DNA from: Arthrobacter sp. CAU 1506
Lineage (GTDB): Bacteria > Actinomycetota > Actinomycetes > Actinomycetales > Micrococcaceae
Direction of reading: 5' to 3'
NCBI RefSeq assembly: GCF_005047635.1
Contig: NZ_SUKC01000010.1
Span: 1-64,000 of the forward strand
Length of the DNA stretch: 64,000 nucleotides
The notes beneath the pieces are model-generated. The model did not search any database, had not been told where the DNA came from, and worked only from the letters and a program-made list of their open reading frames with translations. How positions within the stretch are numbered: the first letter of the stretch is position 1; the number at the start of each line of letters is the position of its first letter. Both the position numbers and the translations under genes were made by a program. Positions 4,298 to 18,274 of this stretch are shown piece by piece.

Positions 4298-5065
4298 ATG
4301 CGAAATGCCGAGGCCTCACCCGTCGAGTCCGTAGACCGGGCCCTCTTGCTGGTGCTGCTGATGCGCTCCGAAGGGCCGGTGTCCGTCAAGGCTGCCGCGG
4401 AGCACCTCAACGTTGCTCCCTCCACTGCGCACCGGCTGCTCTCCGCCCTGGCATTCCGGGGATTCGCGGTCCAGGACCGGGAACGGCGCTACCGCGAGGG
4501 GCCGGTGCTGTCCGAACGGTCGGCGGAGACCTTCTCCGTGCAGATGCTGCGTGAAAACGCCCGTCCGGCCCTGATGGCCCTGCACCAGGCGGTGGGCGAG
4601 ACGGTGCAACTGATGGTGCTGCGCGGCGGCAACATCGTGTTTGTCGACGGCGTCGAATCCCAGGCCACACTGCGCGTGGGCATGCGGGTGGGCGACCAGA
4701 TGCCCGCCTTTGTCTCGGCGGGAGGAAAGGCGATGCTGGCGCAGCTGAGTAACGTCGAACTGGAAGAGCTTTACCGCAGCGGGCTGCCATCCTGGCCCAC
4801 CGGCCGGATCGATTCATTGGCCACGCTGAAGCGGAGCATGACCAAGATCCGCCGGGCGGAATTCGGCACGAACTTTGAGGAGACGGAGCAGGGCGTGATT
4901 GGCCTGGGGGTGAGCATCAACGACGCTGCCGGAAAGCCCATCGCCGCCCTGACCACTGCGACGCCCAGCATCCGTTTCACCCGGGATGACATGCCCGACT
5001 ATGTGGCGGCGCTGCGGGCGGCCGCGGCCGATGTGGAAGAACGGCTGCAAAAGCCACCGCACTAA
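4298..5065 (+). CDS. IclR-family transcriptional regulator (255 aa)
   Basis: The N-terminal winged helix (residues 8-70: VESVDRALLLVLLMRSEGPVSVKAAAEHLNVAPSTAHRLLSAL) is followed by the IclR effector domain (about 85-250) with VQLMVLRGGNIVFVDGVES and AFVSAGGKAMLAQLS. IclR proteins usually control adjacent catabolic operons and respond to a pathway metabolite. The leftward carboxylase/PEP-synthase-like operon begins its 3' end 100 bp away, so this gene is the best local candidate for its regulator. No Shine-Dalgarno precedes the ATG; a GACAAT hexamer five bases upstream suggests a leaderless transcript. The length is typical for the family. Confidence 0.93.
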   Translation: MRNAEASPVESVDRALLLVLLMRSEGPVSVKAAAEHLNVAPSTAHRLLSALAFRGFAVQDRERRYREGPVLSERSAETFSVQMLRENARPALMALHQAVGETVQLMVLRGGNIVFVDGVESQATLRVGMRVGDQMPAFVSAGGKAMLAQLSNVELEELYRSGLPSWPTGRIDSLATLKRSMTKIRRAEFGTNFEETEQGVIGLGVSINDAAGKPIAALTTATPSIRFTRDDMPDYVAALRAAAADVEERLQKPPH

Positions 5066-5169: not shown

Positions 5170-6249
5170 CTAATGCTGATGCGCGGCACCCGACGCCGGC
5201 GGAGCGGTCCGCCCGGAGATGCTGCCGGTGATCCATGACATCATGCCAGCCGACGCGTCGAAGGCCGGCGGACGGTCCGCGTTCGACCACACGGTTTCCG
5301 GCCGGCACTGGAGAAGGACCAGGTTCTTGCCGTCCGGCAGCTCTTCGTCCACGGCGAACTCGATGTCCTGCGGCGCCTGATGAATCTTCTCCAACTGCTT
5401 GCCGAAGGCCGCCAGCGCGGTGACCTCCTCATCCGCCAGGCAGAGCACGGAGCGGCGGTCCTCGGGCACGTCCTGGGGCGCGTCGCCGCGGCGGTACTCG
5501 ATGTGCTTGTACCCGGGGGTTCGGTCGGCGATGCCCAACCCGATCTTCTCCACCAGGAACCGGTCCGGCGTGACTTCGCCGCCCACCACCGACAACCCCA
5601 GGCCCCAGCTCGCCTCCAGCACAATCTTGGAGCGGTCCCCGCTGGTCGGGCTCAGCGTGAACATCACGCCGGCGGCCCGGGCACGGACCACCTTCTGCAC
5701 CACCACGGCCATTTCAATCTCATGCGGATCGATCTCTTTTTCCGCCAGATAGGACAGCACCCGGCCGGCAAACACGCTGACGTAGCACTTGTGGATGTGG
5801 GCCAGCACGTTCTCGGCGCCGGTGATGTCCACCCAGGTTTCGAATTCCCCGGCGAAGCTGGCGCCCACCGAGTCCTCCGCGGTAGCGCTGGAGCGCACTG
5901 CCACCGCCACGTCGTCCACCCCGCAGTCAGCGCAGAGTTTGGCGTACGCCTCCCGGACCGGCGCCGCCAGTTCGTCCGGCAGCGGAATCCCGGCCAGCCG
6001 CGCCGCAATAACCCGCTCCGCCTCGTCGAAGGCGGCCTGGCCGGAGTCGGGCCGCAGCCCGTCCAGGACCTGGGTGGCGAACTCCTTGAGCCCGGCCTCT
6101 TCCAGGTACCTGCGGTAACCGGCCGCCGTGACGGCGAAGCCCGGGGCGACGGGCAGCCCTTGGGCGGTCATCTCGGCCAGGCTGGCGGCCTTGCCGCCGA
6201 CCTGCCGAACGTCGCGGCAATCGGGGTGGGTGAATTCCAGGGTAAACAT
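5170..6249 (-). CDS. PEP synthase-like ATP-grasp subunit (PPDK_N domain only, 359 aa)
   Basis: This is the nucleotide-binding N-terminal third of a PEP synthase/PPDK as a separate protein. Visible motifs are QVGGKAASLAEMT and GLPVAPGFAVT near the start, AVRSSATAEDSVGASFAGEFETWVDI (ATP-grasp core), MAVVVQKVVRARAAGVMFT, and DIEFAVD...VLLQCRPETVWS at the end. It lacks the phosphohistidine and PEP-binding TIM-barrel domains; the His domain is supplied by the gene just upstream. The same split is known from phenylphosphate synthase of Thauera, where a ~40-kDa ATP-binding protein works with a ~70-kDa His protein. The start ATG follows AAGGAG, and 26 bp separate it from the upstream gene. It is the last gene of the operon. 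Confidence 0.88.
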   Translation of the reverse strand: MFTLEFTHPDCRDVRQVGGKAASLAEMTAQGLPVAPGFAVTAAGYRRYLEEAGLKEFATQVLDGLRPDSGQAAFDEAERVIAARLAGIPLPDELAAPVREAYAKLCADCGVDDVAVAVRSSATAEDSVGASFAGEFETWVDITGAENVLAHIHKCYVSVFAGRVLSYLAEKEIDPHEIEMAVVVQKVVRARAAGVMFTLSPTSGDRSKIVLEASWGLGLSVVGGEVTPDRFLVEKIGLGIADRTPGYKHIEYRRGDAPQDVPEDRRSVLCLADEEVTALAAFGKQLEKIHQAPQDIEFAVDEELPDGKNLVLLQCRPETVWSNADRPPAFDASAGMMSWITGSISGRTAPPASGAAHQH

Positions 6250-6275
6250 GGGCCTTGCTCCTTGCAGTGGGATAT

Positions 6276-8159
6276 TCAGCCGGCCGCGGGAACGCCGAGA
6301 TCTTCGGCCCTCGTGTCCGTGGTGGTGCCGGCGGGCTCGTCATCGAGCACGACGACGGTGCCCGCCTTTCCGTCGATGCGCACCCGCTGTCCGGTCTTCA
6401 GCCGGGCGGTGGCGAAGCCGGTGCCGACCACGGCCGGGATGCCGTATTCGCGGCAGACGATCGCGGCATGGCACATCATGCCGCCGATGTCCGTGATGAC
6501 GCCGGTGGCCACGGCAAACGCGGCCGCCCAGGACGGTGCAGTGATCGGCGCAACCAGGATCTCGCCGGGCTGCAGGTCCGGCAGGTCCTTTTCCGAGCGC
6601 AGCACCCGCACCGGACCTTCGACGATCCCCAGCGACCCGGGGATGCCGTTGAGCGTTTTGGACTCGCCGTCGGAGGCGCCGAGCCAGTCGTTGACGCGTT
6701 CGGTGGTGACGCCGTAGTTCATCACCGCGAACGGATCCGTGACCTCCTGCGGCGGAATGCCGTAGGCAGGCGGGGCGGAGGCTGCCTGCAGGGCCGCCAC
6801 GATGGGCTTGCGCCGCTCGATTTCCGCGGCCCACCGTGCCTTGCCGCGGGCTTCCACCCCGATGGCCCACGACTGCACGACGTCGGACAGGACCGTGTCC
6901 AGTTCGAAGCGGTTGAGGTAGAACATGTCGTCGGCGTTGGCGAGGAAGCCGGCGTCGACCAGTACCTGGGCCAGTTCATGGCACTTCTGCCAGAACACGT
7001 TGTGCGACCAGTGCTCCACGTAGATGTTGTGCTCTTCGATGTAGGGGAACACGGTGCGGGCCAGGCCCAGCAGCTCCTCGAACTGTTTCGCCTCATCGGC
7101 GGTGAGCAGGGCACGGTACTCGTCGACAATCTCGTCGCGTTCGGCGCGCAGCCGCTCGATCGGGCGGGAGATGTCCTCGCCTGCGGCGATCTTCCGGGCG
7201 TAGCTGGCGATGTTGCCCACCGGAATGGCGGGATTGGAGTTCCAGGTTTCCTGGTCGTGCGTGAAGCCGTACTCGGTGAAGTAGTTGAACCAGGGGTCGC
7301 GGGTCTCGTCGAAGGAGGCGAGCCAGGTCCGCCCGTTCTCGGTGGCCTCGAGCGCGGACCGCAGCTGATCCGTCGTGCCTTCCGCGGTCACCGTTTCGAC
7401 GAGTCCCAAGTCGTTGGCGAGCTGGGCCAGGCGCCGGCATTCATCGTCGGGCCGGAAGGCCAGAACATCCACGCCGGCGACCATGCGGGAGATGCTCTGG
7501 TCGGTGATCAGCGGGAAGGCCTGCTTGCAGAACTGGAAGAAGGTGATGTACCCGCCGTAGCCGAGGTTGAGGAACTCGAAGTGGTACTGCCAGATGGCAA
7601 AGAACTCGTCGATCAGCCGGTGGTAGTTCTCGGTCAGGGCCATGGCGTCGGAGCGGCCGCGGGCCTCATCGACCACGTGGTCCGGGTCGTATTCGGCCAG
7701 CTTCTGGAACGAGATGGACTGCAGGGATGCGATGGCGCCCTCCATCTTGGTCTTCCACTTCCCGTACAGCTCGTCCCAGTTGGCGTAGTAGTAGCCGGCA
7801 CGCTTCTGGAACACGGCCGCCCGCTCCTGGATCCGCTCGGGGTCGGTGACGCCCAGCGGGGAGATGTAGACGTAGCCGTTCTTCACCCGCACGTCCAAGC
7901 CAAGCGAGACCGGGAGGGCGAAGATCCGGGTGCTGAAGGTGCCCACGCCCAGGTAGACCGCCTCGGCGCCGATGCTGTCGAAGGGGTGGCAGCCGCGCGA
8001 CCAGTGCATGGTGTCGGCGAACCAGAACTGGGCGTCCTCATGCGCCCGGGTCTCCTCGGAAGGGACCAGATAGTACGGGTACATGGACTCCCAGCCTTCG
8101 GCGCCCCCCGGCGCCTTTGCCTCGTGGAAGAACGGGAAACGGTTGCTGTCAGTGCTCAT
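6276..8159 (-). CDS. PEP synthase-like phosphohistidine (swivelling-domain) subunit, 627 aa
   Basis: The C-terminus carries the PEP-utilising mobile domain: ILVAPITAPSWAAAFAVATGVITDIGG followed by MMCHAAIVCREYGIPAVVGTG, with His564 as the likely phosphorylated residue. The first ~480 residues are a large helical region rich in aromatic residues, as in the central substrate domain of phenylphosphate synthase protein 1 and rifampin phosphotransferase. There is no ATP-grasp domain; the downstream gene encodes it. The predicted joint reaction is transfer of a phosphoryl group from ATP through His564 to an alcohol or enol oxygen. I chose the ATG at 8157-8159 because it follows AAGGAG and overlaps the stop of the HAD gene as ATGA. 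The open frame further upstream is antisense noise. Confidence 0.88.
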   Translation of the reverse strand: MSTDSNRFPFFHEAKAPGGAEGWESMYPYYLVPSEETRAHEDAQFWFADTMHWSRGCHPFDSIGAEAVYLGVGTFSTRIFALPVSLGLDVRVKNGYVYISPLGVTDPERIQERAAVFQKRAGYYYANWDELYGKWKTKMEGAIASLQSISFQKLAEYDPDHVVDEARGRSDAMALTENYHRLIDEFFAIWQYHFEFLNLGYGGYITFFQFCKQAFPLITDQSISRMVAGVDVLAFRPDDECRRLAQLANDLGLVETVTAEGTTDQLRSALEATENGRTWLASFDETRDPWFNYFTEYGFTHDQETWNSNPAIPVGNIASYARKIAAGEDISRPIERLRAERDEIVDEYRALLTADEAKQFEELLGLARTVFPYIEEHNIYVEHWSHNVFWQKCHELAQVLVDAGFLANADDMFYLNRFELDTVLSDVVQSWAIGVEARGKARWAAEIERRKPIVAALQAASAPPAYGIPPQEVTDPFAVMNYGVTTERVNDWLGASDGESKTLNGIPGSLGIVEGPVRVLRSEKDLPDLQPGEILVAPITAPSWAAAFAVATGVITDIGGMMCHAAIVCREYGIPAVVGTGFATARLKTGQRVRIDGKAGTVVVLDDEPAGTTTDTRAEDLGVPAAG

Positions 8160-9031
8160 GGTCGGGCTCCTTGCGTCAGTGAAAGGGAGGGAACAAGCAG
8201 TTGGTACAGTTCGGCGACGTCGGCGACGGCCAGGTCCGGCCGCGCCTCGCCGGTCAGGGTGTCGAGTTTCTCGACGCTGGTGGCCCCGGAGAGCACCAGC
8301 GCACTGTTGGCGCCCATCTGCCGGGCCAGTTGGATCTCCACGGTGGCGTCGCCGACCACGGTGACCTCGGCCGCAGGCACGCCCAGCCGGCGCAGCAACG
8401 TCTCGCCGAGTGCGACGGAGGGCTTGCCCAGCACCTGCGGGGTGGCGCCAGCGGCCCAACCGATGGCGTTGGCGATCGCCGCCGAGATGCACACCGACTT
8501 GCCCAGGCCGCCGTGGAACCACGGCACATCCACGGTGGTGTAGAGCGGGGCACCGGCGTCCACGGCCAGGCTGGCGGCGTTGACCTGCGCCGTGCTGTAG
8601 GCGTCCATGGCTCCGACAACCACGACGCCGGCCGGTTCCGGATCGCCCGGATCGGCCAGTTCCACCTCGAGGCGGCGCAGCGGATCTGTCAGGCCTGCCG
8701 CGCCGAGGGCCAGCACCCGGGCGCCGGGGTGGTGGTAGGCGATGTATTCGGCGGCGGCGCTGCCGGCAGTCGCAAACTCTTCATCCCTCACGCCGATGCC
8801 CTTATCCCGCAGATGGGCCGCATACTCGGCGGGCGTTTTCTCCGAAGCATTGGTGCAGACGACGACGGCGTGGCCTGCGGCGTGCAGCGCTGCCAGCAGG
8901 TCCGCGGCGTGCGGCATGGCCTCGCCTCCTGCTCCGCCGGCGCGCTTGGTCCGCATCAGGCAGCCGTCCACGTCCAGCACCCAGCCGCGGGAGTTCCGTA
9001 TGGCGTCGTTCATCTCGTTGACAGTGCTCAC
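8156..9031 (-). CDS. HAD-superfamily phosphatase, NagD-like (291 aa)
   Basis: All HAD motifs can be seen: WVLDVDGCL (catalytic Asp20 and Asp22), VVVCTNAS (motif II), the GKPS lysine and TVVGDATVEIQLARQMG (motif III). The type C2a cap lies between motifs II and III, as in NagD and p-nitrophenylphosphatases. The protein should hydrolyse a small phosphate ester. Its place between the carboxyltransferase and the PEP-synthase-like genes, with overlaps at both ends (GTGA upstream, ATGA downstream), says it belongs to the same pathway. In phenylphosphate carboxylase the delta subunit is also a HAD-type protein, so it could release the enolate from an enol-phosphate intermediate. That role is inference. 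Confidence 0.88.
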   Translation of the reverse strand: MSTVNEMNDAIRNSRGWVLDVDGCLMRTKRAGGAGGEAMPHAADLLAALHAAGHAVVVCTNASEKTPAEYAAHLRDKGIGVRDEEFATAGSAAAEYIAYHHPGARVLALGAAGLTDPLRRLEVELADPGDPEPAGVVVVGAMDAYSTAQVNAASLAVDAGAPLYTTVDVPWFHGGLGKSVCISAAIANAIGWAAGATPQVLGKPSVALGETLLRRLGVPAAEVTVVGDATVEIQLARQMGANSALVLSGATSVEKLDTLTGEARPDLAVADVAELYQLLVPSLSLTQGARP

Positions 9032-10500
9032 CGGGAGGCCTCCTGGGCAGTGGGGCGTTCGAGGGAAAATTTGGTGGTGCCGTCGCTGACCGATACCGAA
9101 TGCAGCGTCGGCCGGTCCTCCGCGAGCGAGAGCAGCTTCTTCAGCGAGGAGACGGGCGAGGCAGCCTTCGCGGCGTACATCCCGTCGACCTGCTCGGCCG
9201 GCATCACCGCGCGCAGCAGCAGTTCCTCGTCGCTGATGGTGGCGCCGAAGCGCTGTCGCAGGTCCTTGATGGTGACGTCGCCGCCGTCGTTCACTGGTTG
9301 TTGGCCGCGTTTAGTGGCCATCGCGCGGTCCATCAGCTCAGGGTCCACCGGACCGGGGAGCGGGCCAAAGTCGCCGCGCAGCAGGTCGATCACCTCGTCG
9401 GAGATCTGCTTGTAGCGCTCGCCGGAGATCACGTTCAGGGTGGCCTGGGCCACGATGTACTGGGCGAACGGCGTCATCACGATCGGCCAGCCCAGGTCCT
9501 CGCGGACCTGCACCGACTCTTCGATGACCGCGTCGAACAGTTCCGGGCGGCGGATCTCCGTCAGCTGGCGCCGGGTGGTGGACTGCACGCCGCCGGGGAT
9601 GGTGTGCCGGTAGTAGGCCTCGTCGTATTCGTTGGGCGTGCCGACCGGAAGGTTCTTGATTTTCGCCTGCCGCTGCAGGTAGGCCGAGGCCCGCGCCATC
9701 GCGTCCAGGTCCACGTCAACGGTGTGGCCGCGGGCGCGGAGGTTGCGCACCAGTTGCTGGGCTTCGGGATGGGACGCCCCGTTGGCCAGCGGCGGCAGCG
9801 CGCAGTGGATGGTGTGGATGCCCAGATCGGCCGCATCCAGCACGGTGAGCGGCGAAAGGCCGGTGGTGGAGTGCGAGTGGATCTCGTCGAACTTCTTCTG
9901 CCGCAGGCTGGACTGCATCAGCGGCACCAGCGTCTTGACCCGGTCCGGGGTCAGCAGGCCGGCGGGATCCTTCAGGTACAGGCCGTCGATGGCCGGGCAG
10001 TCCTCCAGCTCGGCCGCCTTGGCGGCGAAGTAGTCGTCGGTATGCACCGGGCTGGTGGTGTAGCAGATGCCGCCGATGACTTCCTCGAAGCCCACTCGCT
10101 TGGCCATCTCCGCTGTGCGCTTGGCGCCTTCCATGTCGTGCATGGGATCGATGACCCAGAGCCTGCTGACTCCGTTGCGGGCCAGCAGGCTGAAGGCCAG
10201 CTCGAACACGGCGTCGGGCGTGCGGTGGAAGGTGATGAACCGCTTGCCGGTGGTCAGGAAACCCAGCCGCGTGTTGGGCGTCCGATCCCGGGCCGCCCGC
10301 AGCCGCTCCCACGGATCCTCGCGGTGGTAGCGCACGGCGGTGGCCATCAGCGTGCTGGAAACGATCTCCAGCACGCGGTAGCCCACCTGGTCCAGATCCG
10401 GCGTGACGCCTTCGACCATGCGGGTAGTGACGCCGGTGGCGCCCCAGATGCTCTGGTTGCCGTCCCGCAGGGATACATCCACCAGATTGATGTCCGCCAT
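9028..10500 (-). CDS. Divergent biotin-dependent carboxyltransferase, pyruvate carboxylase CT/HMGL-like (490 aa)
   Basis: TIM-barrel carboxyltransferase related to pyruvate carboxylase subunit B and oxaloacetate decarboxylase alpha. Metal and biotin-site motifs are kept: VSLRDGNQS (Asp13), GLYLKDPAGLLTP (Lys177, the carbamylated-lysine position) and IHSHSTTG (His208, His210). The C-terminal PYC_OADA-like part follows, with IPGGVQSTTRRQL near residue 300. The first motif departs from the usual TLRDxHQS, and the substrate loops (for example CALPPLANGASHPEAQQL) differ from those of pyruvate enzymes, so the acceptor is probably not pyruvate. There is no biotinyl domain; the operon encodes one separately. 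The start overlaps the biotin carboxylase stop (TGATG). Confidence 0.87.
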   Translation of the reverse strand: MADINLVDVSLRDGNQSIWGATGVTTRMVEGVTPDLDQVGYRVLEIVSSTLMATAVRYHREDPWERLRAARDRTPNTRLGFLTTGKRFITFHRTPDAVFELAFSLLARNGVSRLWVIDPMHDMEGAKRTAEMAKRVGFEEVIGGICYTTSPVHTDDYFAAKAAELEDCPAIDGLYLKDPAGLLTPDRVKTLVPLMQSSLRQKKFDEIHSHSTTGLSPLTVLDAADLGIHTIHCALPPLANGASHPEAQQLVRNLRARGHTVDVDLDAMARASAYLQRQAKIKNLPVGTPNEYDEAYYRHTIPGGVQSTTRRQLTEIRRPELFDAVIEESVQVREDLGWPIVMTPFAQYIVAQATLNVISGERYKQISDEVIDLLRGDFGPLPGPVDPELMDRAMATKRGQQPVNDGGDVTIKDLRQRFGATISDEELLLRAVMPAEQVDGMYAAKAASPVSSLKKLLSLAEDRPTLHSVSVSDGTTKFSLERPTAQEASR

Positions 10501-11861
10501 CAGTGCACCTCCTGTGCCATGAGGTTGTCGAGGTCGCCGTTCAGCCAGTGCGTGGTCACGGCGTTGGTTTGGTAGTCCGGGTGCGCGAGGATGCGCCGCA
10601 ACAACGGGAGCGAGGTGGTGACGCCGCCGATCTCGAAGGCTGCCAGGGCTCCTTCCATCCGCGTGATGGCCGCTGCCCGGTCCGGGGCCCACGCGATCTG
10701 CTTGCCCATCAGCGCGTCGTAGAAGGGCGGGAAGCGGTACCCCTCGTAGATGTGCGTATCCAACCGGAGACCGCCGGCCGCCGACGGCCGCCAGCGGGTC
10801 ACGGTTCCCGGCGAGGGGCGCAGATCCTGTTCCGGGTCCTGCGCAGTGATCCGGCATTCAATGGCGTGCCCGGTCAGCGAGATGTCCGCCTGCGTGAAGG
10901 ACAGCGGCTCGCCCAGCGTGACCAGCAACTGTTCCCGCACCAGATCCACGCCGGTGACTGCTTCGGTGACCGGATGCTCCACCTGCAGGCGCGGATTCAC
11001 TTCCAGGAAGGCCAGCTCGTCCCGGTCGACGTCGTAGAGGAACTCCACCGTCCCCAGACCCACGTAGTCCAATGCTTCGGCGATCTTCAACGCGCTGGCG
11101 TGCAGCAGTGCACGGGTGGATTCCGGCAGCGCCGCGCATGGTGCTTCCTCCACCACCTTTTGGTAGCGGTACTGCACCGAACACTCGCGTTCCCCCAGGT
11201 GCACCCGGTGCCCGTGGCGGTCGCCGATGATCTGCACCTCCACGTGCTTGGCGTCGGTGACAAAGCGTTCCAAGAAGACCGTGCCGTCGCCGAAGGACGC
11301 CTCTGCCTCCGCGGAGGCTACCTGCCAGGCCTCGGCCAGCTCGGCAGCTGAGGTCACGAGCTTCATCCCGCGCCCGCCGCCGCCGTGCGCTGCCTTAATC
11401 AGCACCGGATATCCGATACTTTCGGCAAGTTCACGCACCTGCTCCGCCGATTGGGCGGTTCCGCCGGCCGAAACGGGAACGCCAACGGACTCAGCCAGGT
11501 GGCGGGCGGTCAGCTTGTCGCCGAGGGCCCGGAGTGCGTCCGGTGAAGGCCCCACGAAGACCAGGCCGTTTTCGGCGCACAGGTCGGCGAAGGCCGGCCG
11601 TTCGGACAGGAAGCCGTAGCCCGGATGGACCGCGGTGCAGCCGGTGGAAACCGCTGCCTGCACCACCGCATCCATGTTCAGGTAGCTGTCGCCGGGCCGC
11701 GGTCCGCCCAGCACCAGCACACGGCCGGCCCGTTTGGCCGCCAGGGTGTCCTTGTCCGCGGTGGAAACGCCGAGCACCGTCTCAAATCCCAGCCGATCGC
11801 AGGCTTCAATAATGCGGACCGCGATCTCACCGCGGTTGGCGACGAACACGCGATGGTTCAT
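10500..11861 (-). CDS. Biotin carboxylase (AccC-type, 453 aa)
   Basis: Forms carboxybiotin from ATP, bicarbonate and the biotin carrier. The sequence opens with the family signature VFVANRGEIAVRII. The ATP-grasp glycine loop is KAAHGGGGRGMKLV, and FLEVNPRLQVEHPVTEAVTGVDLV contains the catalytic and metal residues. The length matches stand-alone biotin carboxylases. It overlaps the upstream carrier gene (ATGA at 11858-11861) and the downstream carboxyltransferase, so the three carboxylase parts are made together. It is probably dedicated to this operon rather than to acetyl-CoA carboxylase, because no AccD is nearby. Confidence 0.93.
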   Translation of the reverse strand: MNHRVFVANRGEIAVRIIEACDRLGFETVLGVSTADKDTLAAKRAGRVLVLGGPRPGDSYLNMDAVVQAAVSTGCTAVHPGYGFLSERPAFADLCAENGLVFVGPSPDALRALGDKLTARHLAESVGVPVSAGGTAQSAEQVRELAESIGYPVLIKAAHGGGGRGMKLVTSAAELAEAWQVASAEAEASFGDGTVFLERFVTDAKHVEVQIIGDRHGHRVHLGERECSVQYRYQKVVEEAPCAALPESTRALLHASALKIAEALDYVGLGTVEFLYDVDRDELAFLEVNPRLQVEHPVTEAVTGVDLVREQLLVTLGEPLSFTQADISLTGHAIECRITAQDPEQDLRPSPGTVTRWRPSAAGGLRLDTHIYEGYRFPPFYDALMGKQIAWAPDRAAAITRMEGALAAFEIGGVTTSLPLLRRILAHPDYQTNAVTTHWLNGDLDNLMAQEVH

Positions 11862-12439
11862 GACGCGGCCCGAATGGCGAACAGCGGCTGCTCGAACTCG
11901 ACCAGCTCGCCGTCCTGGACGAAGACCGCGGCGATTTCGCCTTCAGCCCCAGCGGCCACCGAGTTCATCAGTTTCATCACTTCGACGATGCACAGCACGG
12001 AGTCCGGCGTGACGGTGTCCCCGACTTGGACGAAGGCGGGTTCGCCGGGTTTGGGTGCGCCGTAGAACGTGCCGAGCATGGGTGCGGTGACCAACGTGCG
12101 GCCGGCCGGCAGGTTGTCCGGGCTGATCTTGTTGCTCTGGCCGTTTGATCCGGCAGGCGGAACGGCCGCAGACGCTGTGACCGCAGCCGGTGCGGCGGCA
12201 GTCGGGGGCGCCGCAGTTGGCGGCGCGGTGGGGGCGGCAGCTGCGGCCGGAGCGGGGACAGCTCCGGGAGCCGGGCTGGCGGCCGCTGCCTGGCCGTTGG
12301 CCTGGCTCGCAAGCTCGGGGAAATACCCGCCCCGGCGCACGTGGATCCGCAGCGAACCCTGCTCGTACAGGAAGTCAGTGAACTCGGTTTTGTCGAGCTG
12401 CTCGATGATGGCGGCGAGCTCTTCCAGGTCAACGTCCAT
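11858..12439 (-). CDS. Biotin carboxyl carrier protein (AccB-type, 193 aa)
   Basis: Three parts are visible: an N-terminal AccB-like helix and strand (MDVDLEELAAIIEQLDKTEFT...), an Ala/Pro-rich flexible linker (residues ~45-100), and a C-terminal biotinyl domain with VEVMKLMN (biotinylated Lys156). The start at MDVD was chosen by comparison with AccB N-termini; a longer frame upstream has no family-like sequence. The ribosome binding site is weak (GGACAAACGG). The carrier shuttles carboxybiotin between the biotin carboxylase and the carboxyltransferase encoded next. A 177-bp gap separates it from the acetoacetyl-CoA synthetase and contains a repeated TGCGCAAT motif. Confidence 0.9.
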   Translation of the reverse strand: MDVDLEELAAIIEQLDKTEFTDFLYEQGSLRIHVRRGGYFPELASQANGQAAAASPAPGAVPAPAAAAAPTAPPTAAPPTAAAPAAVTASAAVPPAGSNGQSNKISPDNLPAGRTLVTAPMLGTFYGAPKPGEPAFVQVGDTVTPDSVLCIVEVMKLMNSVAAGAEGEIAAVFVQDGELVEFEQPLFAIRAAS

Positions 12440-12529
12440 AAATACCGTTTGTCCTTGTCCTTGCCCGTACCGGGAGTTGCCGGCCGGAACTATGTTGTGG
12501 ATCACTTTCAGCCTGCGCGGCTGTCTTGC

Positions 12530-12570
12530 TGTGCGCAATACGCTGGAGGCGGATTCCGTGCTGCGCAATT
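12530..12570. promoter_or_regulatory. Repeated TGCGCAAT motif upstream of the carboxylase genes
   Basis: TGCGCAAT occurs at 12532-12539 and again at 12562-12569, exactly 30 bp apart, about three helical turns, in the gap between acetoacetyl-CoA synthetase and the biotin carrier. GGATTCCGT precedes the second copy, and GATTCCGT recurs at 14701-14708 in front of the substrate-binding protein. The arrangement could be a regulator site, for example for the local IclR protein. Function is inferred. Confidence 0.4.
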
Positions 12571-12616
12571 TGCGTGGTTGGTTCGGCGCGATCGTCTGCG
12601 CTTCGGTGCGCCCGCG

Positions 12617-14605
12617 TCAGCTGGGTTCCAGCACGCGGTTGACCCGGCGGACCGTGTCATCGATGTCCTCCGGCCGAACCACTACGCCTAGATCCATGAC
12701 TTCACCTAGCACCGCGCCCTGGATCAGGCGCTTAAGCGGAATCTCCAGCCTCTTGCCGGTGGGGTTGCGTGGAATGCTGGGCACGAACACGATGTAGTCC
12801 GGGACGTGCCGGGGCGAGAGCTCCGCCCGCAAGGTGTTGCGGATGGACGTTTCGAGCTGGTCGTGGTCGGCATGCTCGCCCGCCTCGACCAGCAGCACCA
12901 GCTTGCCCATGCCGCCGCCGTCTTCGAAGTGCAGCACCATGCTGTCGGCAACATCCGGCAGGCCGTCGAGCACGGCGTAGAACTCCGCCGTGCCCAGGCG
13001 CACTCCGCCGCGGTTCAACGTGGCGTCGGAGCGGCCGGTAATGATCCAGCTGTTGCGTTCGGTCTGGATCAGCCAGTCGCCGTGCCGCCAGACGCCCTCG
13101 TAGGCGCCGAAGTAGCTGTTGCGGTAGCGTTCGAAATCTTCGTCGCCCCAGAAGAACACGGGCATCGAGGGCATCGGCTGGGTGGCCACCAGCTCCCCGG
13201 CGGACCCGCGGATCGGCCGACCCTCGGGATCCCAGGATGCCACTGCCACGCCAAGCGGGCGGCAGGACATTTCCCCGGCGTAGACCGCCGTGAGCGGGCT
13301 GGCGCCAATGAACGCAGCGCAGATGTCGGTTCCCCCGGAGGTCGGTGCCAGCAGCAGATCCGGGTTGACCGACGTGTACACCCAGCCCGCCACATCGGCG
13401 GCGAGCGGAGAGCCAGAGCATTGGACCTCCCGGAGCCTGCTGAGGTCCCATTTCTTGGCGGGCTGGAGGCCGGCGTGTGCGCAGGCGGCCAGATAGGCGG
13501 CTCCGGTGCCCAGGTAGGTTGCTTCGGTCTGGGCGAGGATGGCCCACTGGGACCATTCTCCGTCCAGCCCGGGCCAGTTGGGGTCGCCGTCCTCCAGCAC
13601 CAAGGCGGCTCCCATCAGGAGCGTGGAGACACTCAGGGTCCAGACCATCCAGCCGGTCGTCGTGAACCAGAAGGCGGTATCGGACTCGCTCATGTCAAAG
13701 TGCAGGCCCATCGCCTTGTAGTGCTCCAGCAGCAGGCCGCCGTGGGAATGGACAATGGCTTTGGGCTTGCCCGTGGTCCCCGAGGAGAACAGCACGGTGA
13801 GCGGATGGTCGAACGGGACCGGTTCACAGTGGATCGTTCCGAGGTCGCGGGTGAAGTCCGCGTAGAGCTCGGCACCGGCAGGCGCCTCGGCGTCGTCACT
13901 CAGGTAGGGCAGCAGGACAGTGCCCATTTCAGGCAAAAAATCACGGATCCTGGCCAGGTCATCCGCGCGGGAGAGTTCTCGTTTGCCCCAGCGATAGCCG
14001 TCGATCGCCAGCATCAGTGCTGGTTCCAGTTGGGTAATCCGGTCCAGGACGGACTTCGGACCCATCTCCGGCGGCACCGAGCACCAGATAGCGCCGAGCG
14101 CCGTCGTCGCCAAATAGGCGGCGAGGGTCTGCGGGATGTTGGGCAGGTAGCCGGCGACTCTGTCGCCGGGCTTGATGCCGTGCCGGAGGAGGCCCTGCTG
14201 GATCCTGCCGATTTCCTCGAGTAGCCGGGCCCCGGTCCAGTCGATACTGCCGCTGGTCTGGCTCCGGGACTTGACCATGACATGGTCGCTGCGCCGGCGG
14301 AGCGACCGGATGATGTGCTCGGTGTAGTTCAGGGTGGCTCCGGGAAACCACCGGGCTCCCGGCATCGTGCGCTCGGCGAGCACGGTGGTGTAGGGGGAGT
14401 GGGAGATGATGTCGAAGTGATCCCAGACTTCGGCCCAGAAGTCCTCCAGGTTGTCGACCGACCACTGCCAGGCTTCCTCGTAGTCGGCAAACGTGCGCCC
14501 GGTTTTCTGCTCGATGCCCAGCAGGAATCGACCCATCCGGGAGGACGGCCACTGCTCCTTCCCGGGGGCTGGCAGCAGCAGGGAGCCTTGTTCAACGGGG
14601 GGCAT
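12617..14605 (-). CDS. Acetoacetate-CoA ligase (acetoacetyl-CoA synthetase, 662 aa)
   Basis: ANL-superfamily adenylating enzyme that activates acetoacetate to acetoacetyl-CoA with ATP. The AMP-binding loop is LTVLFSSGTTGKPKAIVHSHGG. Family-specific features of acetoacetyl-CoA synthetases are visible: the N-terminal FADYEEAWQWSVDNLEDFWAEVWDHF (ACAS_N), MPGARWFPGATLNYTEHI, SGGTDICAAFIGASPLTAVYAGEMSCRPLG, the TQPMPSMPVFFWGD block, and the C-terminal NPTGKRLEIPLKRL with the catalytic Lys. The length is typical. It is the first gene of the leftward set, 35 bp from the nearer of two CRP/GlxR-like sites, and defines acetoacetate (or a close homologue) as a probable pathway product. Confidence 0.93.
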   Translation of the reverse strand: MPPVEQGSLLLPAPGKEQWPSSRMGRFLLGIEQKTGRTFADYEEAWQWSVDNLEDFWAEVWDHFDIISHSPYTTVLAERTMPGARWFPGATLNYTEHIIRSLRRRSDHVMVKSRSQTSGSIDWTGARLLEEIGRIQQGLLRHGIKPGDRVAGYLPNIPQTLAAYLATTALGAIWCSVPPEMGPKSVLDRITQLEPALMLAIDGYRWGKRELSRADDLARIRDFLPEMGTVLLPYLSDDAEAPAGAELYADFTRDLGTIHCEPVPFDHPLTVLFSSGTTGKPKAIVHSHGGLLLEHYKAMGLHFDMSESDTAFWFTTTGWMVWTLSVSTLLMGAALVLEDGDPNWPGLDGEWSQWAILAQTEATYLGTGAAYLAACAHAGLQPAKKWDLSRLREVQCSGSPLAADVAGWVYTSVNPDLLLAPTSGGTDICAAFIGASPLTAVYAGEMSCRPLGVAVASWDPEGRPIRGSAGELVATQPMPSMPVFFWGDEDFERYRNSYFGAYEGVWRHGDWLIQTERNSWIITGRSDATLNRGGVRLGTAEFYAVLDGLPDVADSMVLHFEDGGGMGKLVLLVEAGEHADHDQLETSIRNTLRAELSPRHVPDYIVFVPSIPRNPTGKRLEIPLKRLIQGAVLGEVMDLGVVVRPEDIDDTVRRVNRVLEPS

Positions 14606-14864: not shown

Positions 14865-14885
14865 AAAAATGATCAAGAGGGTGTT

Positions 14886-15863
14886 GTGAAAAAACTGCTC
14901 GGAACAATGGTCGCCGGAGGCTTGGCCGTAGCTTTGCTCGCGGGATGCGGAAGCGGCAGCGTCTCAGGCGCCCTGCAGACCTCCGCGGGCGTGGATACGG
15001 ATCTGCGGAAGGTGACCGTGGGTGCCATCCCAATCGCCCCGTCGGCCGCTCTGCAGTTGGGCATCGACAAGGGGCTGTTTGCCAAGCACGGCATCGAAAT
15101 CGAGATGCAGTCCGGGCAAGGCGGGGCCTCCATGTTGCCCGCCGTCTCGACGGGAACCATGAATGTTGCCATCGGCAACCCCGTCTCCACGATGCTGGCC
15201 GTGTCGAAGGGCCTGGACCTGAAGATCATCTCCGGGTACTCGCATTCACTGGCCACCGGGGACGACATCACCGGCGTGGTGGCGCTGAAGGATTCCGGCA
15301 TCGAGACGGTCGCTGACCTTGAGGGTAAGAAGGTCTCGGTGAACACGATCGCAGGCCAGGGTGACATCACCATCATGGAGGCCATGGCGAAGGCCGGGGC
15401 GGACCCCTCCTCGGTAGAATTCACCGAGATCGCCTTCCCGGATGCCCCGGCGCAGCTTGAGAAGCGGAATGCGGACGCCGTATGGCTGGCCCAGCCGTTC
15501 CTGAGCCAGGCTCTCGAGGCGGGGCACCACCTGGTCACCTACAACTACCAAGAAACCATCCCGGGCCAGCCCACGCTGGTTGCTTTTGCGAGCGGGAAAT
15601 GGGCCGAAGAAAACCCCGAGTTGGTGGCCGACTTCAAGGCAGCCCTTGCCGAGGTCTCCGACTATGCCGAATCCCATCAGGATGAAATTCGGGCCCTGCT
15701 GCCGACCTTCCTGAAGATGGACCCGGAACTGGCCGATGGTTTGCTTCTTGAGTCGCATTCTGGCGAGATCGACCGCGACTCGCTGCAGAAGATCAGCGAG
15801 CTCATGGTCAAGTACAAGGTGGTCGACAAGCCGGTCGATTTGGATCAGGTCATCCTGGATTAG
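14886..15863 (+). CDS. ABC-type substrate-binding lipoprotein, SsuA/NMT1-like (325 aa)
   Basis: The GTG start follows AAGAGG at good spacing. It opens with a lipoprotein signal peptide (MKKLLGTMVAGGLAVALLAGC), with the lipobox LLAGC. The mature part has the NMT1/SsuA periplasmic-binding fold: KVTVGAIPIAPSAALQLGIDKGLFAKHGIEIEM and GGASMLPAVSTGTMNVAIGNPVS. Relatives bind sulfonates, nitrate or pyrimidine precursors and need a permease and an ATPase, but neither is nearby, so it is an orphan binding protein. It diverges from acetoacetyl-CoA synthetase with shared CRP-like sites, so its ligand may relate to that pathway. The upstream in-frame ATG (14718) would bury the signal peptide and is rejected. 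Confidence 0.88.
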   Translation: MKKLLGTMVAGGLAVALLAGCGSGSVSGALQTSAGVDTDLRKVTVGAIPIAPSAALQLGIDKGLFAKHGIEIEMQSGQGGASMLPAVSTGTMNVAIGNPVSTMLAVSKGLDLKIISGYSHSLATGDDITGVVALKDSGIETVADLEGKKVSVNTIAGQGDITIMEAMAKAGADPSSVEFTEIAFPDAPAQLEKRNADAVWLAQPFLSQALEAGHHLVTYNYQETIPGQPTLVAFASGKWAEENPELVADFKAALAEVSDYAESHQDEIRALLPTFLKMDPELADGLLLESHSGEIDRDSLQKISELMVKYKVVDKPVDLDQVILD

Positions 15864-16918: not shown

Positions 16919-18274
16919 ATGGATATCAAGGCCCGCATCGAAGCGGCTCCGATGAAGCGCACCCAGGTTGGCGTCATTGCCATCTGTATGGCGCTGTACA
17001 TGATCGACGGTTTCGACGTCCTGGTGATGGCGTTCAGCGCCAACGCCGTGATGGAGGACTGGGGCCTGAGCGCCAGCCAGTTGGGTGTGCTGCTGAGCTC
17101 TGCACTGGTCGGCATGGCGATTGGGTCCATCTTCGTCTCCAGTGTCGCGGATGTGATCGGCCGGCAGAAGACGCTGGTGATCGGCGCCGCCGTCGTCGCT
17201 GTGGGCATGCTGGTCTCCGCGTTCGCGCCCGGCTACGGCGTGCTGGTGGTGCTGCGCTTCGTCACCGGCTTGGCCGTGGGCACGCTGCAGGCAACCGCAA
17301 ACGTGCTGGCGTCCGAGTTCTCCAACGCCAAACGGCGCTCCACCGCGCTGGCCCTCGTCAGCATCGGCCAGCCGATCGGCGGTGTGCTGGGCGGCATGGC
17401 CACCGGCGTCCTGATCAGCGCGTTCGGCTGGCGCTCCGCCTTCCTGTTCGGTGCCGTCATCACCGTGATCATGATTCCGTTCATCTGGAAGGCCGTCCCC
17501 GAGTCGGTCGACTTCCTGCTGGTACGCCGCCCGGAAAATGCCCTGCAGCGCATCAACAAGGTGCTGCGCCGGATCGACCAGCCGGTGGTCGGCGAGCTGC
17601 CTGCGCTGCCCGAGGCCCCGGCCAAGAAGAAGTCCCGCTTCGCGGACGTACTGACCGGCGTCAACGCCCGCCGCACCATCCTGATCTCGCTGGCGTACTT
17701 CATCCTGATGGCCAGCTTCTACTTCGCTAACTCCTGGACCCCCAAGCTGGTCACCGCCAGTGGATTCAGCCAGCAGGACGGCATCACCGCCGGCGTGCTC
17801 TTCAGCGTTGGCGCAATCATCGGCGCCGTTGTGCTGGGTGCGTTCGGTGCCCGCTTCCCGATGCGCAAGGTCCTCGCGGTGTTCTTCGTGATCGGCGGCC
17901 TGACCTTCGGTGCGTTCTCGCTCTCCACCGGCTCGCTGGCCGGAGCGCTGTTCGCCGCCGCCCTGGTCGGCTTTGGCTCCAACGCGCCCATCGCCGGCAT
18001 GCTGGCCATCAGCCCCACCTACTACACCTCCGATGTGCGCGGCACAGCGCTGGGCCTGGTCATCGGCATGGGCCGGGTCGGCGCCATCGCGTCGCCGATC
18101 ATCGCCGGCGCACTGATGGACGGCGGCTGGCAGCCCACCGACCTGTACTTCCTCTTCATCATCCCGATGCTGATCGGCGCCGTAGTGATCTCGATGCTGG
18201 GCAAGCCGGTGCTGGCATCGGTCGCACCGAAGAGCGAAGCGGTCCGCGAGCAGGAGCCGGCCGGCAAGCACTAG
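16919..18274 (+). CDS. MFS transporter, aromatic acid:H+ symporter (AAHS)-like (451 aa)
   Basis: Twelve-helix major facilitator. The AAHS-type signature at the start of TM1 is IAICMALYMIDGFDVLVMAFSA, with Asp in the membrane, and the loop motif SSVADVIGRQKTLVIGA follows between TM2 and TM3. Family members (PcaK, BenK) import protocatechuate, benzoate and related acids, but some transport other organic acids. There are no aromatic-degradation genes beside it, so the substrate is open. It stands alone, followed by a strong terminator. The ribosome binding site is weak (TTAGGC). Confidence 0.88.
   Translation: MDIKARIEAAPMKRTQVGVIAICMALYMIDGFDVLVMAFSANAVMEDWGLSASQLGVLLSSALVGMAIGSIFVSSVADVIGRQKTLVIGAAVVAVGMLVSAFAPGYGVLVVLRFVTGLAVGTLQATANVLASEFSNAKRRSTALALVSIGQPIGGVLGGMATGVLISAFGWRSAFLFGAVITVIMIPFIWKAVPESVDFLLVRRPENALQRINKVLRRIDQPVVGELPALPEAPAKKKSRFADVLTGVNARRTILISLAYFILMASFYFANSWTPKLVTASGFSQQDGITAGVLFSVGAIIGAVVLGAFGARFPMRKVLAVFFVIGGLTFGAFSLSTGSLAGALFAAALVGFGSNAPIAGMLAISPTYYTSDVRGTALGLVIGMGRVGAIASPIIAGALMDGGWQPTDLYFLFIIPMLIGAVVISMLGKPVLASVAPKSEAVREQEPAGKH

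Follow-up and report, generated by a model that had tools for sequence, protein, structure and literature searches.

The 64,000-nt window analysed here, by which we mean the whole stretch taken from contig NZ_SUKC01000010.1 of Arthrobacter sp. CAU 1506, carries on its minus strand a seven-gene operon (positions 5170–14605) that very probably encodes an Hpe-type pathway for the carboxylation of a hydroxyaryl methyl ketone. As judged from the sequences compared below, the chemistry is most likely that of the known Hpe-type aryl-ketone carboxylation, and what is new is most likely a separate clade of such operons. A first-pass annotation of this DNA had already picked out seven minus-strand genes here; all are present at these coordinates, and Pfam and NCBIfam agree with the families that it named.

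In order of transcription, the first gene encodes E (12617–14605; 662 aa), an HpeE-like acyl-CoA synthetase of the acetoacetyl-CoA synthetase (AACS) family, proposed to act as an aryl-beta-ketopropionate–CoA ligase. It is followed by the genes for C (11858–12439; 193 aa), a biotin carboxyl carrier protein (BCCP) with the biotin site EVMKLM at Lys156; A (10500–11861; 453 aa), a biotin carboxylase by Pfam and NCBIfam; B (9028–10500; 490 aa), a carboxyltransferase (CT) placed in the phospho-aryl-ketone carboxylase group by its motifs and tree position; D (8156–9031; 291 aa), an HpeD-like HAD-IIA phosphatase; H (6276–8159; 627 aa), the substrate and swivel (His) subunit of a dikinase, with His564 in the motif TDIGGMMCH; and I (5170–6249; 359 aa), the ATP-grasp (PPDK_N) subunit of the dikinase. 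Four of the six junctions overlap (C/A by 4, A/B by 1, B/D by 4 and D/H by 4 nt), bearing out the start–stop overlaps described earlier for most of the set, and the remaining two are spaced by 26 nt (H/I) and 177 nt (E/C). E passes the NCBIfam cut-offs of TIGR01217 (672 bits; cut-off 521) and NF002937 (763 bits; cut-off 639), and H passes that of NF006153/PRK08296 (853 bits; cut-off 578). TDIGGMMCH in H is an instance of the two-component dikinase signature T/S-x-x-G-G-x-x-x-H. B has a PYC/OADA-type domain with the motifs LRDGNQS at residue 11, TTGKRF at 83, YLKDPAGL at 175 and IHSHSTTGL at 207, and the best PDB match of I is 9goj (E 2.6e-62). On this basis the catalytic signatures of C, H and B are intact. 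Scans for promoters (one site against 0.7 expected) and terminators (4 against 5.1) were uninformative.

A pathway with this set of components, hpeHICBADEF of Rhodococcus rhodochrous GD02, was published in 2022 for lignin-derived aromatic ketones (PMC9618137). HpeHI phosphorylates the ring hydroxyl of acetovanillone and 4-hydroxyacetophenone, the biotin-dependent HpeCBA carboxylates the phosphorylated ketones, with free ketones not detectably transformed, HpeD dephosphorylates after carboxylation, and HpeE and HpeF are proposed to form and cleave a CoA thioester (PMC9618137). According to its authors, the pathway needs the ring hydroxyl (PMC9618137). HpeHI acts as a dikinase and cannot do without its catalytic His (PMC12167813), and a homologous pathway, Acv, has been reported (PMC13101465). 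The proposal of the first-pass annotation, ATP- and biotin-dependent carboxylation of a ketone by way of a split kinase resembling PpsAB, a phosphatase of the HAD type and a CoA ligase as the last enzyme, agrees with the Hpe gene set. The view taken there, that the gene combination is without a characterised precedent, must be withdrawn: Hpe has the full set and Acv its first six genes (PMC9618137, PMC12167813, PMC13101465). A literature search by enzyme names had indeed returned nothing for the combination, which is explained by the different vocabulary of the Hpe papers. The order of steps must be revised too, from enol phosphorylation, dephosphorylation and then carboxylation, to the Hpe sequence of phosphorylation of the phenolic hydroxyl, carboxylation and then dephosphorylation (PMC9618137).

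The likeness to the GD02 system extends to homologues of all seven window proteins, the domain split, the catalytic His motif and the AACS-type label of the ligase. The differences lie in gene order (H-I-C-A-B-D-E-F in GD02, as against E, C-A-B-D-H-I in the window), in the position of hpeF, which is outside the window operon, and in membership of a separate clade (100/100). As an anchor for comparison we used L207, a 12-kb stretch from the family of Nocardia sienata with the order H-I-C-A-B-D-E-F. The ATP-grasp subunit of L207 is a near-identical match to PDB 9goj (794 bits across 367 residues). From its family and size, 9goj is taken here as the HpeI crystal structure reported in PMC12167813; the code is absent from the text of that paper examined. 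Window proteins are 41% (E), 43% (C), 48% (A), 42% (B), 34% (D), 45% (H) and 38% (I) identical to those of L207. Table 1 of PMC9618137 gives HpeB as the carboxyltransferase and HpeA as the biotin carboxylase; the masses in its text (HpeA 57.4 kDa, HpeB 49.3 kDa) fit the reverse, as does the BCCP–biotin carboxylase–CT order in L207.

The following scheme draws on homology, gene order and catalytic motifs, on membership of the clade and on the presence of the F, PobA, PcaG and PcaH genes; each reaction in it is a prediction, and the ring position of the hydroxyl above all. H and I, with ATP, would phosphorylate the phenolic hydroxyl through the phospho-His564 swivel domain. C, A and B, with ATP, bicarbonate and biotin, would carboxylate the methyl carbon of the ketone to a phospho-aryl-beta-ketopropionate, from which D would strip the phosphate and on which E would form the CoA thioester. 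An HpeF/CouO-like enzyme of the amidohydrolase family, encoded in a coumarate-type cluster, would then release acetyl-CoA, leaving a hydroxybenzoate that would enter the PobA and protocatechuate branch. The candidate substrates, by position of the hydroxyl, would be 4-hydroxyacetophenone or acetovanillone on the one hand and 3-hydroxyacetophenone on the other.

Genes for the last steps are present in the window's genome (G000). An hpeF-like gene (G000:C2:129862-130737; 83% identical to the F query from L036) lies ∼115 kb from the operon within a MarR-SDR-F-ACAD-MaoC-ligase cluster, ACAD being acyl-CoA dehydrogenase and the ligase a CoA ligase; the order MarR-SDR-F-ACAD-MaoC is repeated in six relatives, five of which also have the ligase. 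By its gene content, this cluster looks like a coumarate (Cou) side-chain pathway, and CouO is 95% identical to HpeF (PMC9618137). Thus both an AACS-like ligase, in the operon, and an HpeF-like hydrolase, outside it, are available. The genome also encodes a PobA homologue and, next to it and in this order, PcaH and PcaG; PobA is over the cut-off of NF006091 and below that of TIGR02360, and PcaH and PcaG are over theirs. For the clade described below, 11 of 21 loci encode an Amidohydro_2 protein homologous to HpeF, and 22 of 25 genomes have an HpeF homologue of at least 400 bits (20 of 23 without duplicates).

The clade in question, clade 1, is defined as the window operon together with relatives having the order C-A-B-D-H-I. 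It was delimited in a genome search with B, for close relatives only, from which the best 80 of 125 relatives were kept, so that the numbers of genomes given are minima. Gene calls in related loci come from a simple codon-usage script, which makes start codons and some calls approximate; several names were given by eye, and statements on flanking genes refer to those listed. In the 20 closest loci (60–87% identity in B), C-A-B-D-H was found in the same order in every case and I came next in 19; in L049 the contig ends inside H, hence I was not called there. The search for a conserved neighbourhood in other genomes, which the earlier annotation had put forward, was therefore successful, and recurrence in 20 of 20 loci indicates that the arrangement is not due to chance. 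A homologue of E was present in 14 of the 20, either adjoining the block or a few genes off on the other strand; in L036 and L045 E is absent and a PaaK-like ligase follows I. The other 60 relatives kept are mostly proteobacterial, with a CT 42–47% identical to that of the window; H lies upstream of B in 50 of them, and in 25 of these more distant relatives a biotin carboxylase was not found between C and B. Clade 1 was seen in 25 genomes, namely those of the window, the 20 closest loci, G175, G104, G206 and G813, and its hosts include Arthrobacter, Georgenia, Nocardia, Streptomyces and Corynebacterium strains. Among plasmids, 17 records carried relatives of B; none of these reached 60% identity, and none was part of a clade-1 operon.

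When 53 B proteins were placed in a maximum-likelihood tree, all 24 clade-1 rows (the window, the 20 closest and three further genomes) fell into one group with support of 100/100. The Hpe, Xcc-type and Acv-like rows formed its sister (97/81), and all of these together were set apart from the outgroups (99/97). A tree of H, made by a quick method, also recovered clade 1 as a single group. As far as these trees go, the window operon belongs to a separate clade, sister to the Hpe-, Acv- and Xcc-like groups; loci are labelled ‘acv’ or ‘xcc’ on the strength of similarity and gene context, SYK-6 and EbN1 sequences having played no part. No characterised clade-1 member emerged from the literature searches, and a supplementary figure of other hpe-like clusters in PMC9618137 may include some of these loci. 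In the scan for the His motif of H, the pattern was unmatched in 7 of 15 Acv-like rows, and L049 was cut by the contig end.

A motif of the carboxyltransferase, at the position of the pyruvate-carboxylase Arg, sets these groups apart from the outgroup rows. The motif TGxRF was present in 36 of 37 clade-1, Hpe, Xcc-type and Acv-like rows, with SGxRF in L205, and in none of nine outgroup rows, eight of which have Arg at or next to the site. The residue x is Lys in clade 1 (TTGKRF), Met in Hpe, Leu in the Xcc type and Phe in 8 of 10 Acv-like rows. The position of the Arg in the MLLRG (or LIRSRN) motif of pyruvate carboxylase, a residue with a role in pyruvate binding, is taken by Thr in window B and in all clade-1 rows. 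This bears on the idea that B belongs to an enzyme of the pyruvate carboxylase or oxaloacetate decarboxylase type, encoded beside an unrelated pair resembling PEP synthase. The solved structures closest to B are indeed subunits of pyruvate carboxylase and oxaloacetate decarboxylase, and the domain is PYC_OADA; nevertheless, all pyruvate carboxylase and OadA scores of B fall below the NCBIfam cut-offs (TIGR01108, 271 bits, cut-off 757; TIGR01235, 104 bits, cut-off 1114), the Arg is replaced, and scores of the same kind are obtained with the CT of L207, an hpe cluster. We regard such an enzyme as extremely improbable.

Acetone or butanone, phosphorylated as the enol, dephosphorylated and carboxylated to acetoacetate, was the substrate proposed in the first-pass annotation. 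E is above the cut-off for the AACS family, biotin carboxylase and kinase parts are present, and one clade-1 locus (L050) contains a fused 3-oxoacid CoA-transferase. However, HpeE of L207 is itself labelled acetoacetate-CoA ligase by TIGR01217 (753 bits, cut-off 521), so that the label of E does not point to acetoacetate or acetone, and the CT motif is that of Hpe-type carboxyltransferases. The company kept by the operons is also that of aromatic compounds, with the F-type hydrolase in 11 of 21 loci, the PaaK-like ligase in L036 and L045 and an aromatic acid transporter nearby. The three HyuB-family genes of the window's genome are uninformative on acetone, the family being broad (21 of 24 genomes). 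Acetone or butanone is therefore very unlikely. Carboxylation of a ketone at the expense of ATP is a feature that the window proposal shares with the acetone and acetophenone carboxylases of the HyuA/HyuB type. To our knowledge, acetone carboxylase is not homologous to HpeCBA, and a domain scan found no hydantoinase A or B domains among the seven operon proteins. Acetophenone carboxylase is likewise not homologous to HpeCBA (PMC9618137).

Other characterised systems resemble the operon in part. AcvABCDEF of Sphingobium SYK-6, known here from the descriptions in PMC9618137 and PMC13101465, has the kinase pair, the three-part carboxylase and the phosphatase, and its last steps are encoded elsewhere, as in the window's genome (PMC13101465). 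In the Acv-like relatives, named by similarity only, H is upstream of B in 50 of 60, whereas in the window it is downstream. XccABC, the 4-hydroxyacetophenone carboxylase of Aromatoleum aromaticum EbN1 (described in PMC9618137), is a three-part biotin carboxylase like that of the window. The presumed Xcc-type loci L204 and L206 also have genes for an AACS-type ligase, a HAD protein, a PchF-like protein and a thiolase. They differ in that the window CT is 44% identical to that of L204 and in having no H or I among the genes called in their 20-kb stretches; in EbN1 itself, xcc is clustered with hpeHI homologues (PMC9618137). Between the AACS-type ligase and the BCCP, both loci have a further gene (L204:11706-12947; L206:6668-7906), of the UPF0261 family in L204 and similar by eye in L206, which could stand in for the kinase in Xcc-type clusters.

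The two-component architecture of H and I is shared with the phenylphosphate synthase PpsAB and with CreHI. HpeH, CreH and PpsA are ∼45% identical to one another (PMC12167813). Since these phenol dikinases act on different substrates, the 45% identity of window H to that of L207 does not name its substrate, and this is the first of several points that weigh against an Hpe-type function. Two hpe-type operons of Micrococcaceae, the family of the window, namely L213 and L214, are 47–80% identical to L207, compared with 34–48% for the window; the window operon is thus not an hpe orthologue, and its substrate may differ. No hpeF lies within the window. In two loci (L052 and G813) the block is accompanied by a thiolase and not by an F-type hydrolase, and a thiolase could be used by a route through either acetoacetyl-CoA or an aryl-beta-ketoacyl-CoA. 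Finally, neighbours in other clade genomes suggest a 3-hydroxy or a ring-unsubstituted ketone, and the latter has no phenolic hydroxyl and so offers the kinase nothing there to phosphorylate.

Were the ketone acetophenone, the kinase would have to make the enol phosphate of an aromatic ketone. In favour, EbdA, of the ethylbenzene dehydrogenase EbdABC, is encoded beside the block in Aromatoleum and G813, over the equivalog cut-off of 2000 (2149 and 2186 bits), and the ketone formed in ethylbenzene breakdown is acetophenone (PMC4729919). Against it, the characterised relatives of the kinase, HpeHI, CreHI and PpsAB, are all phenol kinases (PMC12167813), and a ring hydroxyl is a requirement of the Hpe pathway according to its authors (PMC9618137). 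We consider it unlikely that the clade acts on acetophenone, EbdABC-type enzymes taking substituted ethylbenzenes as well. Matches in Aromatoleum toluclasticum were to the HyuB family only and were uninformative on an acetophenone carboxylase of the Apc type. It is possible that the loci of A. toluclasticum and G813 amount to a complete anaerobic route for ethylphenol or ethylbenzene using a clade-1 carboxylase. The Ebd, SDR, thiolase and ligase genes around the block were seen in L052 (453-15305), L243:13805-15832, L203, L244:98-6564 and L245:17804-19798.

Within the Hpe-type reading, the ring position of the hydroxyl has still to be considered, and for the window itself the evidence on para versus meta conflicts. 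A para-hydroxy ketone is favoured as the predicted substrate by the gene content of the window's genome, which includes PobA and the protocatechuate genes but no gentisate dioxygenase. PobA homologues were found in 24 of 25 clade genomes, in 2 of the 25 over the cut-off; in the window's family 62 of 100 genomes have one, and within this family the counts were 10 of 10 against 61 of 99 (p = 0.014, not corrected for genus or genome size). Since PobA is so common in the family, it is weak as proof of a para substrate.

Possible, although we do not favour it, is a narrower form of the Hpe-type reading in which every clade member, that of the window among them, would be adapted to a meta-hydroxyphenyl ketone such as 3-hydroxyacetophenone, for example from 3-ethylphenol. 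The chemistry would be that of Hpe, with 3-hydroxybenzoate as the end product, degraded via gentisate in most members. In Nocardia sienata, gentisate dioxygenase-like, FAH-like and maleylpyruvate isomerase (MPI)-family genes directly adjoin the operon. In Actinophytocola, 3-hydroxybenzoate 6-monooxygenase-like and gentisate dioxygenase-like genes lie ∼18–22 kb from it, with MPI- and FAH-like genes by eye, and adjoin an IclR gene whose product is 89% identical to the partial IclR beside the operon. Of the 25 clade genomes, 20 have a full-length gentisate-dioxygenase homologue (19 of 23 without two duplicates), as have 12 of 100 genomes of the window's family. Within that family the comparison is 6 of 10 against 12 of 99 (Fisher p = 0.0013, with no matching by genus or genome size). 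Homologues of 3-hydroxybenzoate 6-hydroxylase (3HB6H) of at least 340 bits occurred in 15 of 24 genomes, in 14 of these 15 within 5 kb of gentisate dioxygenase.

In A. toluclasticum and G813 the block sits among genes for EbdABC, an SDR, a thiolase and a ligase of the AACS type. G813 has in addition a second carboxylase operon, of the Xcc type, beside a PchF-like FAD oxidase. As far as is known, enzymes of the PchF type need a para-hydroxyl, and the two G813 carboxylases probably serve different ketones. HpeHI itself phosphorylates 3-hydroxyacetophenone slowly, at 0.038 U/mg compared with 0.69 U/mg for the 4-isomer (PMC12167813). Clade 1 might in that case be a third major branch, sister to the known para-hydroxy branches, that evolved for meta-hydroxyphenyl ketones and whose anaerobic Aromatoleum members couple it to EbdABC for 3-ethylphenol, a history that we likewise put forward tentatively.

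Against a meta substrate, the window's genome has no gentisate dioxygenase (a 19-bit fragment only) and no 3HB6H homologue at E 1e-60, so that the gentisate linkage is not proof of it. Both genes are missing from G133, G175 and G104, and 3HB6H from G136 and G206; the gentisate-dioxygenase match is over the family cut-off in one of 25 genomes only, and 3HB6H of L228 scores 323 against a cut-off of 459. Gentisate genes are near the operon in two loci only, and PobA-like proteins, in 24 of 25 clade genomes, are likewise enriched within the family. No genetically defined 3-hydroxyacetophenone pathway was among the literature matches listed. Enzymes of the 3-hydroxybenzoate 4-hydroxylase type (PF07976) turned up in all of the 14 genomes scanned, whether or not these carried the operon, and were discarded as an indicator.

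Little use is made of the aryl ketones in industrial lignin streams, and growth on hydroxyphenylethanones had been reported for no more than four strains or their mutants (PMC13101465). Clade 1, in 25 genomes, widens the choice of enzymes for aryl ketones and raises the question of whether clades differ in the ring position of the hydroxyl required or whether there is a chemistry that works without one.

On the 3′ side, an IclR-family regulator gene (4298–5065, plus strand) is convergent, tail to tail, with the operon; its product is 75% identical to the IclR beside L036, and IclR genes were found in 19 of 21 clade loci, window included. On the other side, and divergent from E, is a gene for an NMT1/SsuA-type ABC substrate-binding lipoprotein (14883–15863, plus strand, start codon inferred), 55% identical to another such protein from this genome's coumarate-type cluster; the flanking genes listed include neither a permease nor an ATPase gene beside it. 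Further on lies the gene of an MFS transporter of the aromatic acid/H+ symporter family (AAHS; 16919–18274, plus strand; TIGR00895, 344 bits, below the cut-off of 419), homologues of which are encoded in 5 of the 20 closest clade loci. At the contig end, ∼3 kb past the 3′ end of the operon, two IS110-like transposase genes were recognised by eye (83–2469); they are consistent with horizontal transfer.

Further dikinase genes were seen outside operons of this kind. The window's genome encodes a second H-type subunit outside the operon, at L005 (G000:C7:42374-42586), which is 44% identical and has the motif TDIGGMMSH. In Micromonospora globispora (L236:9419-16807), a second H-I pair, with H of the PRK08296 family and I recognised by eye, lies beside a putative Rieske oxygenase gene, with no NCBIfam match, and meta-cleavage genes, both called by eye, a different use of a phenol dikinase. 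In one Micrococcaceae genome, a second H-I pair (L214:223-4629) lies beside a P450 gene, called by eye, just downstream of the hpe-type operon; this arrangement resembles the CreHI 4-cresol system.

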